Source of the DNA: a virus
Reading direction: 5' to 3' (one strand)
DNA: 21,742 nucleotides
IMG/VR virus record: IMGVR_UViG_3300030103_003691
Location: 1-21,742 of that record
Positions 17,080-21,742 of the stretch are shown one piece after another. The notes under the pieces are model-generated. The model was not told the DNA's origin. It worked only from the letters and a program-made list of their open reading frames with translations, and ran no database searches. The stretch's first letter is position 1; the number at the start of each line of letters is the position of its first letter. A program made the translations under genes and the position numbers.

Positions 17080-17510
17080 TAAGTGAGGTAGACATAGCCT
17101 ATATCGCAGGACTCTTTGATGGCGAGGGCTCAATACATTTCAAACGTGGCATAGAGAAGAAAAAGAAACATCGAGGCAAACCAGGATACAGATTATCAAA
17201 TAGTCTAAGATTATCCATGGAAATAACCATGACCGATGAGTCTGTTTTAATCTGGCTTCATGAAGTGTTAGGTGTTGGTACATTGAACCGTAAACCCAGA
17301 AAAGGTAGACGAAAGGATGGCACGAAGTATCTGATGCAATACCGATGGCGATGTGTGTTCAGAGACGCTTATCATGTATGCTGTCTGATATGGCCGTTTG
17401 CTCATACAAAGCTACCTAAGATACAGGAAGTGATAGAACATTACTCAACGCAAAATAGAGAGAATGTGATAGAGTTGGATAAGTATAGAAAGGCCATAAG
17501 TTCAGAATGA
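17076..17510 (+). CDS. LAGLIDADG homing endonuclease-like protein
   Basis: This 144-residue protein has one LAGLIDADG motif, IAGLFDGEGSIHF (about 9-21), with Asp/Glu near its end acting as the usual metal ligand. A beta-rich basic DNA-binding region (about 25-110, many Arg and Lys) and a C-terminal helix follow. One motif means it would work as a homodimer. The GTG start overlaps the previous stop (GTGA). It is free-standing, with no sign of an intron or intein around it, and is tightly coupled to the next gene, so it may be a domesticated or mobile nuclease. Basic patches and more G+C-rich codons distinguish it from the flanking accessory genes. Confidence 0.85.
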   Translation: MISEVDIAYIAGLFDGEGSIHFKRGIEKKKKHRGKPGYRLSNSLRLSMEITMTDESVLIWLHEVLGVGTLNRKPRKGRRKDGTKYLMQYRWRCVFRDAYHVCCLIWPFAHTKLPKIQEVIEHYSTQNRENVIELDKYRKAISSE

Positions 17511-17608: not shown

Positions 17609-18294
17609 GATGGAATAGACTGTACGAGTACCCGGCTTCGATGCGAAGTTCGATCGAGGGCAAGCGTCATTACGAGATAACTGGCGAAAAGTTACCAAGT
17701 GTTACGACGATATTATCCGCAACACAGAGTGATGAGAAGAGAGAATCTATAGCCAGGTGGACATCTAGGGTAGGCGAGCAGGAGGCGGAAAGGGTCCGGG
17801 ATCAGGCGGCCAGCCGCGGTACAAACATGCACCTACATTTAGAGCGGTATATAGAAGGTAAGGGACACAAGGATCTGACCGACGAGGGTCAGGTGGCAGG
17901 CGACATGGCTCAGGTGATAATTGATAAGGGTTTATGCGATCTTTCTGAGATATGGGGCAGTGAGGTTACCCTATATTACCCAGGGTTGTACGCAGGTGCT
18001 ACAGACCTGGTTGGTGTATATGACTATGAGGATTCAATTGTTGACTTCAAACAATCGAACAAGCCCAAGCGTAAGGAGTGGATCGACGACTATTTCATGC
18101 AGCTGGGGGCATATGCGATGGCGCATAACCAGGTTTATGACACGGAGATCACACAGGGAGTCATATTGATGTGTACTCCAGACAAATATTTCCAAAAGTT
18201 TCAGATAAAAGGCAGAGAGTTTATCAGATATCAGCACAGATTCCTAGAGAGACTTGACAAGTATTATAATGGCCGAAATAAGGCAGAATCATAA
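17605..18294 (+). CDS. PD-(D/E)XK exonuclease, MGME1-like
   Basis: The 229-residue product starts at the ATG of MRWNRLYEYPASMRSSIEGK. Key features: LPSVTTILSAT (30-40), WTSRVGEQEAERVRDQAASR (52-71), a Thr-His region TNMHLHLERYI, then the nuclease core GSEVTLYYPGLYAGATDLVG (D134), DSIVDFKQS (D147, K149) and YFMQLGAYA (Q166). This order matches the RecB-like/MGME1 exonuclease family, which degrades ssDNA ends. A further upstream in-frame TTG (17554) would run through the membrane microprotein and is rejected. It may process phage DNA during recombination or degrade host DNA. Confidence 0.9.
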   Translation: MRWNRLYEYPASMRSSIEGKRHYEITGEKLPSVTTILSATQSDEKRESIARWTSRVGEQEAERVRDQAASRGTNMHLHLERYIEGKGHKDLTDEGQVAGDMAQVIIDKGLCDLSEIWGSEVTLYYPGLYAGATDLVGVYDYEDSIVDFKQSNKPKRKEWIDDYFMQLGAYAMAHNQVYDTEITQGVILMCTPDKYFQKFQIKGREFIRYQHRFLERLDKYYNGRNKAES

Positions 18295-18563: not shown

Positions 18564-18854
18564 ATGCCAAAGAAAAGAAGAAAAAGAAATGTGTTTGATG
18601 TTGCAACAGACATACCTTATCCAAAGGTAAGAGTTGAATGGATAGATTGTGTCAGTGATTCCGCATGGGCTACAGACAAGGAGTTTGATAAAATGAAGTT
18701 AGCTACACCTGTAAATGAAGGTTGGTTGTATTCAAAAGATAAGAAGTCAATCAAATTGTTTGCATCTTATGATAAGGATGAAGATGGAATTACTTTTGGT
18801 GATAGAACAATGATACCTACACCTTGGGTTAAAAAGGTTACAAAAATTAATTAA
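18564..18854 (+). CDS. Conserved phage hypothetical protein
   Basis: This 96-residue protein begins MPKKRRKRNVFDVATDIPYP, a basic start followed by a compact beta-rich region: VRVEWIDCVSDSAWATDKEF, then LFASYDKDEDGITFGDRTMIP and PWVKK. The ending (GDRTMIPTPWV) looks familiar from marine phages. It follows the structured noncoding stretch, has no strong ribosome binding site, and converges on the terminase gene with an 8-base overlap of their ends. Confidence 0.78.
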   Translation: MPKKRRKRNVFDVATDIPYPKVRVEWIDCVSDSAWATDKEFDKMKLATPVNEGWLYSKDKKSIKLFASYDKDEDGITFGDRTMIPTPWVKKVTKIN

Positions 18855-19362
18855 GTTTTTTTAGTCTAGGTAATCTTTTTTCTTTTACTCTCTCTTTAAC
18901 ATCTTCGGCTTTGACATCCTCTAACAGTGGTGAGTATTCTTCCAATATGCTTTTGAGTTCTTTCTCCATCTCCTCTTTGGACATGTCATCTAACTTACCA
19001 GTTCTGATTATCTTCTGTTCTACGTATAACCCTGCTGCCTTACCTCTTGCTACCTCAGCATTGTTTGCAGCCGAGAAAGCACCTTTCTTTAGTGCCTCCT
19101 GTCTGATCTTACCTAGTTCTGCTATATGTCTCTCGTAAGTGACCTCATATTTCTTTTGAAATTCTTCTCTGACCTCACCTATGTATTTTACCACGAGTGG
19201 ATATATTTTTGGGTTCTGTAATTCATATGCTGTCTGCCTTGCCCTATCCTTCTCATAGCCTGCTTCGATAGCACATTCATAGGCATACTTACGTCCCTCG
19301 TTTGTAACCAATAGGTTGGCAAACTTTCTTTGCATTTCTGTTAATTTCTTCGGTACTCCCAT
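18847..19362 (-). CDS. terS: Terminase small subunit
   Basis: The product has 171 residues from the ATG of MGVPKKLTEMQRKFANLLVT. The N-terminal part (LTEMQRKFANLLVTNEGRK, then YECAIEAGYEKDRARQTAYE followed by LQNP) is the helix-turn-helix region typical of small terminases. The centre (RHIAELGKIRQEALKKGAFS followed by AANNAEVARGKAAGLYVEQK) is the oligomerisation coiled coil. The C-terminal tail is charged. TerS binds pac or cos DNA and hands it to TerL, which is not in this window. A TTG at 19398 would add 12 residues read through a palindromic promoter and is rejected. It is on the minus strand, separate from structural genes. Confidence 0.85.
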   Translation of the reverse strand: MGVPKKLTEMQRKFANLLVTNEGRKYAYECAIEAGYEKDRARQTAYELQNPKIYPLVVKYIGEVREEFQKKYEVTYERHIAELGKIRQEALKKGAFSAANNAEVARGKAAGLYVEQKIIRTGKLDDMSKEEMEKELKSILEEYSPLLEDVKAEDVKERVKEKRLPRLKKLN

Positions 19363-19365
19363 AGC

Positions 19366-19398
19366 TTGACTTTTAACGTTACATGACGTAAAAGTCAA
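19366..19398. promoter_or_regulatory. Palindrome carrying two face-to-face promoters, leaderless both ways
   Basis: The arms TTGACTTTTA and TAAAAGTCAA enclose 13 bases containing ACGT twice. Reading plus: TTGACT (19366-19371), 17 bases, TAAAAG (19389-19394), 7 bases, ATG at 19402. Reading minus: TTGACT, 17 bases, TAAAAG, 7 bases, ATG at 19362. The layout is identical both ways, so each -35 overlaps the other strand's -10, and transcription would begin at or next to each start codon. No ribosome binding site is present on either side. Confidence 0.7.
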
Positions 19399-19401
19399 TC
19401 A

Positions 19402-19644
19402 ATGATAAGTGCAAGAGTATTAGCAAATCAGCTAAATAATTTTTTAAAATCACCAACATGTCAGAATGCTAGGGTGCAGGTCAAACTACCAAGAGGTGAG
19501 TTTCATTCTCCTGATGGTCACTTCGATATAAAATCAATAACATTGTTTGAGAATAATATAATAGGGTCTAGAGAATCCCATAGATTGGTCATCGAGATAG
19601 CCTCTGAGAGTTGGAGAATGGGTACAGTCAAAAAGAAAGTGTAA
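19402..19644 (+). CDS. Conserved phage hypothetical protein
   Basis: This 80-residue protein begins MISARVLANQLNNFLKSPTC. A short helical start is followed by strands (ARVQVKLPRGEFHSPDGHFD, ITLFENNIIGS, HRLVIEIASE). I have seen the MISARxLAxQLxxF and VQVKLP elements in marine phages but know no function. It is divergent from the terminase across the palindromic promoter and apparently leaderless. Confidence 0.8.
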   Translation: MISARVLANQLNNFLKSPTCQNARVQVKLPRGEFHSPDGHFDIKSITLFENNIIGSRESHRLVIEIASESWRMGTVKKKV

Positions 19645-19657
19645 CGTCAAAAATAAG

Positions 19658-20020
19658 ATGGGACCAGAGGCAAAATTCTACCAATATTTTAAGAAAAACA
19701 CACCGAATATATCTTACACAAGAATAGAAAATACAACATCATTAGGCACACCAGATGTGTTGGCATACAATAAAAACAATACATTTTTCACAATTGAATT
19801 TAAAGTTACAAAACGTTATTCTGTGAGGTTCTCACCCCATCAAATTTCCTTTCATGTGAGACATCCGAAGAACAGTTTCATCCTAGTCAAGACCCCTGAT
19901 GCTTGTGGCTTGAAACTTTATGAGGGGTTCAGGATTCGTGAGCTTGCCGCTTGCGGCTTGAAGCTTGATGCTTGCGGCTTGGGGCTTGAAGCTTGTCGCT
20001 TGCGGCTTGAGAGCTTGTAG
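19658..20020 (+). CDS. PD-(D/E)XK nuclease (resolvase-like) with repeat-encoded C-terminus
   Basis: This 120-residue protein has a small nuclease core: ISYTRIENTTSLGTPDVLAY (18-37, E24 and D33), TIEFKV (45-50, E47 and K49) and FSPHQISFH (58-66, Q62), the E, D...ExK...Q pattern of VRR-NUC/archaeal Hjc-like nucleases, which cut branched or junction DNA. The core ends near residue 80. Residues 80-120 (ACGLKLYEG... ELAACGLKLDACGLGLEACR) are encoded by a GCTTGNN heptanucleotide array and look like an added tail. The last 92 bases overlap a convergent minus-strand gene. Confidence 0.82.
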   Translation: MGPEAKFYQYFKKNTPNISYTRIENTTSLGTPDVLAYNKNNTFFTIEFKVTKRYSVRFSPHQISFHVRHPKNSFILVKTPDACGLKLYEGFRIRELAACGLKLDACGLGLEACRLRLESL

Positions 20021-20023
20021 CTT
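19901..20023. repeat. GCTTGNN heptanucleotide tandem array, large copy
   Basis: Two units at 19901-19914 are followed by a decayed gap, then nine perfect tandem heptamers from 19942 to 20004 (GCTTG followed by CC, CG, AA, AT, CG, GG, AA, TC, CG). An eight-base unit (20005-20012) and one more unit (20013-20019) follow. Two further units lie at 20059-20072. The first five bases are invariant while the last two vary freely. Confidence 0.93.
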
Positions 20024-20255
20024 CTTCGATATCGTTGTGTGGAACTGTTTCCTCTATAGCTTGTTGCTTGAGGCCCGGACCAGGTGCACGCTGCACTGGC
20101 GCCGTCGCGCTCGCTCCGCTAATGACCTGATCCGAATTTGAGACTGAGCGTCCGGGCTTATCTAGAATCCTCTGGAGCTCCTGTTGAGTCTCTTTATTAC
20201 GCTTGCGTAATTCTTTATAATAGTTTGGGTGTCTAAACATTTTAGTGAATTCCAT
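19929..20255 (-). CDS. Hypothetical basic protein with repeat-encoded C-terminus
   Basis: This 108-residue protein begins MEFTKMFRHPNYYKELRKRN. Residues about 5-35 (HPNYYKELRKRNKETQQELQ) look like a conserved helical unit. The rest is low-complexity: an Ala/Ser/Pro linker, then Gln/Ala/Ser/Lys-rich units (SSQAASDKLQAPSRKHQASS) encoded by the complement of the GCTTGNN array. The start overlaps the Gp88-like gene by 14 bases; a second ATG at 20240 (MFRHPNYY) is also possible. The N-terminal part is likely real; the tail may be a by-product of the repeat. Confidence 0.6.
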   Translation of the reverse strand: MEFTKMFRHPNYYKELRKRNKETQQELQRILDKPGRSVSNSDQVISGASATAPVQRAPGPGLKQQAIEETVPHNDIEEATSSQAASDKLQAPSRKHQASSRKRQAHES

Positions 20256-20844
20256 ATGATATATTTTTTATTTCAGAATTCCAACAATTTCTACAGGTGC
20301 CGCATTCATTGTTTTGCTGCGGGGCTGGACAGTTGGCGCCGTTATTCACCACGGTCGAGTAGTGCTCGAAGCTGCCCGCTGGTTCCTGGTCCACCATCGG
20401 CATACTAAATCTTATGATAAGGTTTTCAGGCTTGCTGGCCTGGTGCTTCTGGATCCATGCCTCACGTGTCGGCAGCCAGTGACGCTTGTCAGGTGTCAAC
20501 CTGCATACCTCGTAAATTTTTTCTAAGTGATCAAGATCCTGTACATCCCCTGAGTCGTGCCATCTAAATACATCAGGCTTCTTGCTGTTGATCAGGTGAG
20601 CCATTGCCTGGACCCATTGCGGGTGATTGATGGCTGCCAGCCTTCGATACTGTGCATCCTGAACAACCTTGAAGACATAACAACCTTTGAGCGCATAACA
20701 GTCATAGCAGGTGCTGCCTTTAATGTTTCTGAGCTTGGAGCCTGTCTTGCATTCCTTCGCAGGTAAACCTATCGACCAGCCAGGCATCTTTGACGGCTTG
20801 CTCAGGCTGCCGCCTATAATCTTTAATGCTTCATCTGTTTTCAT
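20242..20844 (-). CDS. Gp88-family (mycobacteriophage D29 Gp88-like) phage protein
   Basis: This 200-residue protein has two Cys clusters (C32, C46, C49, C55 and C172, C181, C184, C187) and a central FRWHDSGDVQDLDHLEKIYE (93-112), RHWLPTREAW (121-130) and IIRFSMPM. The combination of GSTCYDCYALKG, HDSGD, WLPTRE and CPAPQQNNECGTCRNCW fits the Gene Product 88 family. The conserved Cys sets imply metal or Fe-S binding; the activity is not known. Composition is richer in G+C than most of the window. It overlaps the small upstream gene by 14 bases. Confidence 0.75.
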   Translation of the reverse strand: MKTDEALKIIGGSLSKPSKMPGWSIGLPAKECKTGSKLRNIKGSTCYDCYALKGCYVFKVVQDAQYRRLAAINHPQWVQAMAHLINSKKPDVFRWHDSGDVQDLDHLEKIYEVCRLTPDKRHWLPTREAWIQKHQASKPENLIIRFSMPMVDQEPAGSFEHYSTVVNNGANCPAPQQNNECGTCRNCWNSEIKNISYGIH

Positions 20845-20989
20845 CTATAACCTCGTATTCTAACCAGCCATTGGCTTCATCGACGCCCATCATAAAATAC
20901 TTTAGCTGTTCATTAGTTTTAAATTCATAAGATTTTTTATCCTGAGGTTCTTTATCAGTGCCCCAGTGTATAGTTATTTGTTTAGTCAT
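20831..20989 (-). CDS. Small phage protein, hypothetical
   Basis: This 52-residue protein, MTKQITIHWGTDKEPQDKKS then YEFKTNEQLKYFMMGVDEAN then GWLEYEVIDENR, is acidic. The (T/I)xxWGxD...YxFK...ExxxFxxGVDExNGWxEYE pattern looks like a conserved small phage family. AGGAG lies about eight bases before the ATG, and a TTGACA-N17-TATAGG promoter lies just upstream, making it the first gene of the minus-strand Gp88 operon. Function unknown. Confidence 0.8.
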   Translation of the reverse strand: MTKQITIHWGTDKEPQDKKSYEFKTNEQLKYFMMGVDEANGWLEYEVIDENR

Positions 20990-21134
20990 ATTTCTTTCTC
21001 CTATAAACTCCTATAACACAATACAGGTCCCTTGTCAAGCTTGCTGCTTGGCGCTTGCAGCTTGCCGCTTGTTGCTTGCTGCCATTGACCTGCAGCCAGC
21101 GCCAGTGATTTATCAAAATTTTTTGTTTACTCAT
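20982..21134 (-). CDS. Doubtful 50-codon frame containing GCTTGNN repeats
   Basis: An ATG at 21134 with AAAGGA four bases upstream opens a frame (MSKQKILINHWRWLQVNGSK, then QQAASCKRQAASLTRDLYCV) that ends inside the next gene. Its middle is the complement of the smaller GCTTGNN array, and the operon promoter lies inside it. One extra A in the A6 run near codons 4-6 would switch to another open frame (KNFDKSLALAAGQWQQATSG...) that looks more protein-like. It may be a frameshifted or decayed gene. Confidence 0.3.
   Translation of the reverse strand: MSKQKILINHWRWLQVNGSKQQAASCKRQAASLTRDLYCVIGVYRRKKYD
21010..21038 (-). promoter_or_regulatory. Sigma70-like promoter for the Gp88 operon
   Basis: On the minus strand TTGACA (21038-21033) is followed after 17 bases by TATAGG (21015-21010); the leader then reads AGGAGAAAGAAAT before the ATG at 20989. 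The -35 directly abuts the last unit of the smaller GCTTGNN array. Confidence 0.7.
21039..21080. repeat. GCTTGNN heptanucleotide tandem array, small copy
   Basis: Six perfect tandem heptamers: GCTTG followed by CT, GC, CA, CC, TT, CT, then GCC. It is the same unit and orientation as the array about 1 kb away at 19942-20019. Confidence 0.92.
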
Positions 21135-21248: not shown

Positions 21249-21325
21249 CTGATCCCAGATCTATCGGGAAGCATTGCGCGCGCTGTTATGGTAAAGACTT
21301 ACCATCCCAATAGATCAGGGATCAG
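21249..21325. repeat. GATC palindrome 1
   Basis: The left arm (21249-21269) begins CTGATCCCAGATCTAT, and the right arm (21305-21325) ends ATAGATCAGGGATCAG; 19 of 21 positions pair. The 35-base interior has GCGCGCGC and a perfect 7-bp hairpin, ATGGTAA-AGAC-TTACCAT (21288-21305). On the minus strand the two mismatches become U-U and G-U, so the RNA hairpin would be more stable there. Confidence 0.88.
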
Positions 21326-21385
21326 CTTTGGATGATGCCCAGACCATACCTGTGCATTTAATACTATTGTATGTCTCGTCCAAAT

Positions 21386-21449
21386 CTGATCCCAGATCCA
21401 ATCGCTATTGCTCGAGTCTTTAATGACATGCAATTGGATCAGGGATCAG
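21386..21449. repeat. GATC palindrome 2
   Basis: The left arm CTGATCCCAGATCCAAT (21386-21402) pairs with ATTGGATCAGGGATCAG (21433-21449) at 16 of 17 positions around a 30-base loop. The outer 13 bases are shared with palindrome 1, including the same A-A mismatch position. Confidence 0.88.
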
Positions 21450-21574: not shown

Positions 21575-21585
21575 TCCTATATAAT

Positions 21586-21616
21586 ACTTGACAGATTAAT
21601 TGTCAAGTGTTAAAAC
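21586..21616 (+). promoter_or_regulatory. Promoter with operator-like palindrome over the -35
   Basis: TTGACA (21588-21593), 17 bases, TAAAAC (21611-21616). The -35 is the left half of a perfect palindrome, ACTTGACA-GATTAAT-TGTCAAGT (21586-21608), as expected for a repressor site. Downstream ACGAAAGG is the ribosome binding site for the ATG at 21644. Confidence 0.68.
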
Positions 21617-21643: not shown

Positions 21644-21742
21644 ATGGAAAAACAAAAAAGAATAACACTTAACGCAGATAAGCGAAAAGTGATTGCTGAT
21701 GTATTTCAAGATCATTTTGAAAGTAATTCAAAATATAAGAAA
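21644..21742 (+). CDS. Start of a hypothetical gene, cut by window edge
   Basis: Thirty-three codons are visible, beginning MEKQKRITLNADKRKVIADV and then FQDHFESNSKYKK, helical and charged. GAAAGG lies seven bases before the ATG, and the gene has its own operator-like promoter. Too little is visible to name a family. The strong control signals suggest an important early or structural gene. Confidence 0.8.
   Translation, partial: MEKQKRITLNADKRKVIADVFQDHFESNSKYKK

Follow-up and report, generated by a model that had tools for sequence, protein, structure and literature searches.

The arrays of the 7-bp unit GCTTGNN found in the window, the 21,742-nucleotide stretch of IMG/VR virus record IMGVR_UViG_3300030103_003691 analysed here, are probably cis-regulatory DNA, namely multi-unit heptad operators built into the leftward sigma70-type promoters of HTVC023P-type pelagiphages. 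On the coding strand the gene-upstream arrays have the form (NNCAAGC)n and typically lead into a sigma70-type -35 box. HTVC023P-type phages infect SAR11, are reported among the most abundant viruses of the ocean and carry genes that are mostly of unknown function. In the phage collection the contig comes closest to Pelagibacter phage HTVC027P (MN698241) and to the uncultured 023Pt_psg01, a similarity that places it among the HTVC023P-type pelagiphages with HTVC027P as its nearest isolate. No description of these arrays in pelagiphages was found in the literature searched, which comprised papers outside subscription.

GCTTG cores at an exact 7-bp period form four arrays of 2, 10, 2 and 6 copies on the + strand of the window, accompanied by one degenerate heptad pair (Table 1). 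All of them share one orientation and no array occurs elsewhere in the 21,742 bp, so that the positions and the single orientation given by the sequence-only reading were correct, with unit boundaries right within 1-2 units. The pattern GCTTGNNGCTTG, with at most one mismatch, has 20 matches in the window versus 0.86 expected in shuffles. Period-7 5-mers with at least four copies have 10 starts in the window, all of them GCTTG, and 100 dinucleotide shuffles contained 0 sequence-complex 5-mers with four period-7 copies. Between positions 19600 and 21100 the + strand carries GCTTG 26 times and CAAGC once; the preceding 19.6 kb shows the opposite bias (GCTTG 3, CAAGC 16). The same region has a G+C content of 45% versus 37% in the preceding 19.6 kb, and HTVC027P shows this rise too, at 16-18 kb (44% versus about 34%). 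A search against Rfam delivered 0 matches.

Table 1. Features of the array locus in the window, with positions, strand and the observations on which each entry is based.
Feature	Position	Strand	Remarks
Promoter array, six heptads (NNCAAGC)n	21039..21078	-	ends directly at -35 box; same junction in relatives
-35 box TTGACA	21033..21038	-	0 bp from array; pattern recurs in relatives
-10 box TATAGG	21010..21015	-	17-bp spacer from -35; sequence and relatives
52-aa ORF, first gene behind array-promoter	20831..20989	-	function not assigned; family also behind array-promoters in relatives
Gp88-family protein, commonest cassette gene	20242..20844	-	PF17338, E=1.2e-26
ORF, counterpart of HTVC027P gp32	19929..20255	-	N-terminus conserved; C-terminal tail encoded by 3' array
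3' array, two heptads	20059..20070	-	core scan
3' array, degenerate pair (GCTTGTAGCTTC on + strand)	20013..20024	-	core scan; one mismatch
3' (closing) array, ten heptads	19942..20009	-	no promoter behind
Outlying heptad pair	19901..19912	-	inside nuclease-like ORF
Nuclease-like ORF, convergent	19658..20020	+	weak PHROG matches (phrog_2165, Holliday junction resolvase family); 3' end crosses closing array
Terminase small subunit (terS)	18847..19398	-	weak Terminase_2 match

Some further features of the window were recorded. To the right of the promoter array, positions 21249-21449 are non-coding and hold four alternating copies of CTGATCCCAGATC and GATCAGGGATCAG, which give large hairpins; similar pieces are visible in L349, L351 and 023Pt_psg01 (L327), and the stretch is possibly an origin or another regulatory site. 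At 21580-21608, just left of a rightward gene starting near 21644, TATAAT is followed by the palindrome ACTTGACA-GATTAAT-TGTCAAGT. The ORF at 17076-17510 matches LAGLIDADG endonucleases (PF00961, E=6e-6) and is probably a free-standing homing endonuclease. An AlphaFold model of Gp88 had a mean pLDDT of 58 and was discarded.

Viral contigs were scanned for four GCTTGNN units. Among the matches listed, nearly all represent the terS-terL interval beside the nuclease-like ORF, and the few exceptions among them are slippage-like or unrelated (L065, L101 and L037). Array flanking was scored around 79 Gp88 homologues; counting testable loci only (70 upstream, 73 downstream), arrays stand upstream of Gp88 in 69 and downstream in all 73, with 0 on the opposite strand. 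In the longer records, including the complete genome of HTVC027P (57.6 kb), arrays are confined to this one locus. The relatives 023Pt_psg01 and HTVC023P have 0 arrays, but the absence from all relatives that the sequence-only reading had named as evidence against itself is not the case. A blastn search with one array against known phages gave 0 matches although HTVC027P has arrays, and is therefore uninformative. In L394, L398, L399, L408 and L410, terS is inverted relative to the nuclease-like gene, Gp88 and the arrays.

Most of the array-less relatives L327 (023Pt_psg01), L347, L351, L383, L385 and L387 carry strand-biased runs rich in GCTTG and GCTC at the array positions. These runs have 4-, 7- and 8-bp spacing, and some are accompanied by GC-rich hairpins and T-runs. 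The ordered heptads may have grown out of such older, less regular sequence, and these loose GCTTG-rich stretches suggest that an earlier role of the motif may have differed from its present one.

Among 226 distinct gene-upstream arrays, TTGAC follows the last CAAGC at 0 bp in 111 and no farther than 15 bp away in 165; 57 lack a TTGAC within 20 bp. Between -35 and -10 the spacer mostly measures 17 bp, and TAGGAT, TATAGG and TATAAA lead among the -10 hexamers. On the minus strand of the window the order is CAAGC-TTGACA, 17 bp, TATAGG, the 52-aa ORF and Gp88. Promoter-abutting runs in relatives comprise 3-9 units, hence some have fewer than four heptads. Of the gene-upstream arrays 72% score 9.5 or more as promoters, versus 7% of the nuc-side arrays. 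With the loci from a scan for the composite element, the enlarged set contains 225 arrays, 173 of them with the -35 box at 0 bp, and 69 of 69 newly fetched composite-element loci carry markers of this phage group. TTGAC was found within 15 bp in 0 of 143 bacterial GCTTGNN arrays, and array plus promoter in 0 of 289 alphaproteobacterial genomes, taken as a group with SAR11 not singled out. In everything searched, the composite element is restricted to this phage group.

The phage arrays are shaped by selection on the core and not by slippage. Between close pairs, which are not independent of one another, each core position differs in 1.1-4.9% of cases in downstream and 0-2.7% in upstream arrays, compared with 30-36% for the two spacer positions and 10-12% for flanking DNA; a first-pass comparison had given 1.5% for the core, 19% for spacers and 9% for flanks. 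As arrays are defined by intact cores, the core rate may be biased, but by about twofold at most against a core/spacer contrast that is roughly tenfold. Intervals from GCTTG to GCTTG in the clade are exactly 7 bp in 1127 cases, the runner-up being 14 bp with 71. The proposal of selection on GCTTG every 7 bases is borne out by these figures.

An ordinary slippage microsatellite is extremely improbable. Some indels of 7, 14 and 21 bp do exist between close pairs, and some three-unit duplication occurs, because spacers at lag 3 (21 bp) are identical in 12.7% versus about 7.4% by chance. However, adjacent spacers are identical in only 3.8%, below the 7.5% expected, and neither the core and spacer rates nor the fixed promoter junction agree with slippage, which was rejected as the sequence-only reading had anticipated. 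For repeated template-driven addition, which it had offered as another origin, nothing was found in support. Bacterial GCTTGNN arrays retrieved with the same search pattern have 88% unit-to-unit identity. Genomes of Pseudomonas, Halomonas and Alcanivorax (L130-L209, L439-L458) hold many GCTTGNN heptamer arrays with identical units, and in these stretches, as read, exact tandem arrays almost always have period 7 and use several other cores besides GCTTG.

Maintenance of coding function in any frame had also been put forward for the repeat. In (NNCAAGC)n no stop codon is possible in any frame, so the CAAGC strand is indeed open throughout, but this fails as the reason for the repeat: the same fixed core stands in promoter arrays that are not coding, and synonymous positions keep it as well, grounds on which a protein-coding repeat (QAxSxKx tail) was rejected too. 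Several cassette ORFs, such as the gp32 counterpart of the window, end inside an array and thereby gain QAxSxKx tails.

The genes behind the arrays are diverse. The 241 distinct inter-array segments mostly hold one leftward gene each, and in 226 of them the longest ORF lies on the CAAGC strand. Gp88 is present in 141 of the 241, and the remainder represent at least 16 further families plus singletons. A -35 box within 15 bp of the array occurs with 38 downstream gene families and at exactly 0 bp with 24, and in the enlarged set 45 unrelated small-gene families stand behind array-promoters, with Gp88 the commonest. Because the loci share ancestry, locus counts are not counts of independent events and the number of gene families is the better measure. 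In L108 and L128 the Gp88 slot is occupied by an unrelated protein of 115-118 aa. The slot of L408 (4687-5397) was considered as a further non-Gp88 gene and rejected as such: it encodes a distant Gp88 (PF17338, E=2e-47) that is 21% identical to that of the window, a replacement within one protein family. A Pfam scan of ten cassette proteins gave nothing above threshold.

Since unrelated genes occupy the Gp88 slot, the arrays are not an attribute of Gp88 itself. The original description of arrays flanking a Gp88 operon is accurate for Gp88 but too narrow, as they are not tied to this gene and serve many interchangeable genes, with one promoterless closing array in addition. Because the genes behind array-promoters are interchangeable, array, promoter and gene together act in the manner of a cassette, open to an incoming gene.

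The 3' array is promoterless and sits at the meeting point of the leftward unit and the convergent nuclease-like ORF. Because no promoter is present there, a promoter model alone leaves this array unexplained. On the gp88 strand, 0 of 63 array-clade loci showed an intrinsic terminator before or after Gp88, and the array-less L383 and L385 have a clear intrinsic terminator on the 3' side of Gp88.

In HTVC027P the arrays at 17396-17428 and 17719-17737 directly precede the promoters of gp33 (Gp88) and gp34, the only genes of this phage with array-promoters. In its transcriptome gp33 and gp34 alone among 87 genes constitute "extra cluster 2", which peaks at 6-9 h and is separate from the early, middle and late genes (PMC12753301). 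A given gene pair would be singled out by chance once in 3741 cases, and once in about 86 on the assumption that neighbours share their expression; the link to expression comes from a single phage and a pair of adjacent genes. Neither "repeat" nor "promoter" appears in the main text of the transcriptome paper, in which HTVC027P is described as obligately lytic (PMC12753301). Gp30 of this phage (L330 15768-15944), an ArfA-like ORF beside terS with similar short ORFs in L103 and L069, likewise has its own expression cluster (PMC12753301).

The chances are about even that the locus represents an undescribed phage system in which a protein reads (NNCAAGC)n at 0 bp from the -35 box, giving a shared expression window to open-ended, swappable single-gene cassettes, with the closing array in place of a terminator. 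A gene-upstream array (NNCAAGC)3-9 typically ends at the -35 box and is followed by the 17-bp spacer, a -10 box resembling TATAGG or TAGGAT, a ribosome-binding site and usually one short gene. The putative protein would place one protomer on each 7-bp unit and polymerise along the array in fixed register, so that the promoter-proximal protomer could contact RNA polymerase at the -35 region and thereby set a shared expression time. The 3' array would act as a roadblock or as a looping partner, and a new gene would come to share the switch by insertion behind a copy of the array-promoter. The effect could be either activation or repression, and the binder could come from phage or host.

Candidates for this binder were sought among the phage genes. 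The gp35 gene to the right of the arrays was rejected, as it is present in 18 of 31 array loci and also in the array-less HTVC033P. TerS as reader of the arrays is not supported, since its sequence does not track them. Presence and absence of all HTVC027P ORFs in array-bearing versus array-less genomes yielded no exact tracker, a comparison limited by partial contigs.

Other functions of the arrays were weighed against the operator reading. It is unlikely that they are an RNA-level element, in which the leftward transcript would carry (NNCAAGC)n between genes and a TRAP-like RNA-binding oligomer or a termination factor would act on it. The array orientation is always that of the leftward genes, arrays also stand at the 3' end of the unit, a place without intrinsic terminators, and GCTTG is unable to pair with itself, which would leave such RNA unstructured. 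However, the gene-upstream arrays lie upstream of the -35 box in fixed register and are therefore outside the transcript of the very gene they precede; for the 3' array an RNA element could still hold. Rather less probable is a recombination linker, with the arrays kept as short homologies for the exchange of cassettes between co-infecting phages. The slots do hold many unrelated genes in varied combinations, and high-identity alignments end in arrays 33 times versus 17.5 expected, but this excess is only 1.9-fold and arrays are gene boundaries and prone to indels anyway. Moreover, homology would not fix five core bases while the spacers diverge, nor the 0-bp junction with the -35 box, and exchange at arrays may be a side effect.

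A packaging (pac) site bound by the ring-shaped small terminase encoded nearby is very improbable. The locus lies between terS and terL in constant orientation relative to the genome, and the TerS weakly matches Terminase_2, the family of the SPP1/SF6 TerS, for which pac has direct repeats (PMC4737164). Against this, arrays are absent with TerS proteins 77% identical to that of the window (L337, L338) and present with others of 61-65% identity, at loci with inverted terS the arrays remain oriented with the nuclease-like gene and Gp88, and the arrays are at least two, lie apart and are each linked to a promoter. Iterons of a replication origin have slighter prospects again: tandem direct repeats at one locus per genome with large inverted repeats nearby would be in keeping with them, but the arrays go with the promoters of swapped genes, their number and position vary with the cassettes, and the replication genes are located elsewhere.

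Among known systems, the best reading is by analogy with plasmid pSM19035, whose heptads the phage arrays may resemble in their mode of action. The Omega/ParB operators (parS) of pSM19035 consist of 7-10 copies of 5'-WATCACW-3' per site, are located at promoters and are wrapped by Omega with one dimer per heptad, with several sites per replicon (PMC9499535). In both systems 7-bp units built on a five-base core follow one another without gaps, from several up to ten at a site, and several such sites are located at promoters. The phage arrays abut promoters (111 of 226 at 0 bp, 165 at up to 15 bp) and contain at least four contiguous heptads, with 10 and 6 cores in the window, although some promoter-abutting runs of relatives have fewer. 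In contrast to pSM19035, the phage core is CAAGC/GCTTG rather than ATCAC and departs from the WATCACW consensus, the units have one orientation only where omega sites mix both, and the phage unit has an extra promoterless closing array and many unrelated genes behind its arrays. RHH/Omega genes, searched as RHH_1 (PF01402) and Omega_Repress (PF07764), gave 0 matches in eight array-bearing phage records, several of them incomplete.

A survey describes tandem heptamers as the most abundant short repeats in prokaryotic intergenic regions, with no clear indication of their function (PMC6344855). They share the 7-base period and often the GCTTG core with the phage arrays, but the bacterial GCTTGNN units are 88% identical to one another and lack TTGAC within 15 bp in all 143 arrays.

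Two phage systems invite comparison as well. In the PeSL cassettes of T4-type phages, a promoter/stem-loop element at gene boundaries travels with small interchangeable genes. Both systems have promoter elements at a gene boundary with interchangeable genes (45 families here), but the shared element of the pelagiphages is a heptad array abutting the -35 box; of hairpins, only the terminator type was scored, with none on the gp88 strand at either flank of Gp88 in 63 loci. The stoperators of mycobacteriophage L5 are asymmetric repressor sites that are oriented with transcription and scattered between phage genes. They are single 13-bp motifs, in contrast to contiguous 7-bp arrays fused to promoters.

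If the proposed system is real, a shared switch and the list of the genes under it would have been identified from sequence alone. It predicts an undescribed heptad-binding protein that would be retrievable with the array as bait, and would provide a selected, functional case of a heptamer array. It would also show how a lytic phage can take up new genes that are already wired for expression.
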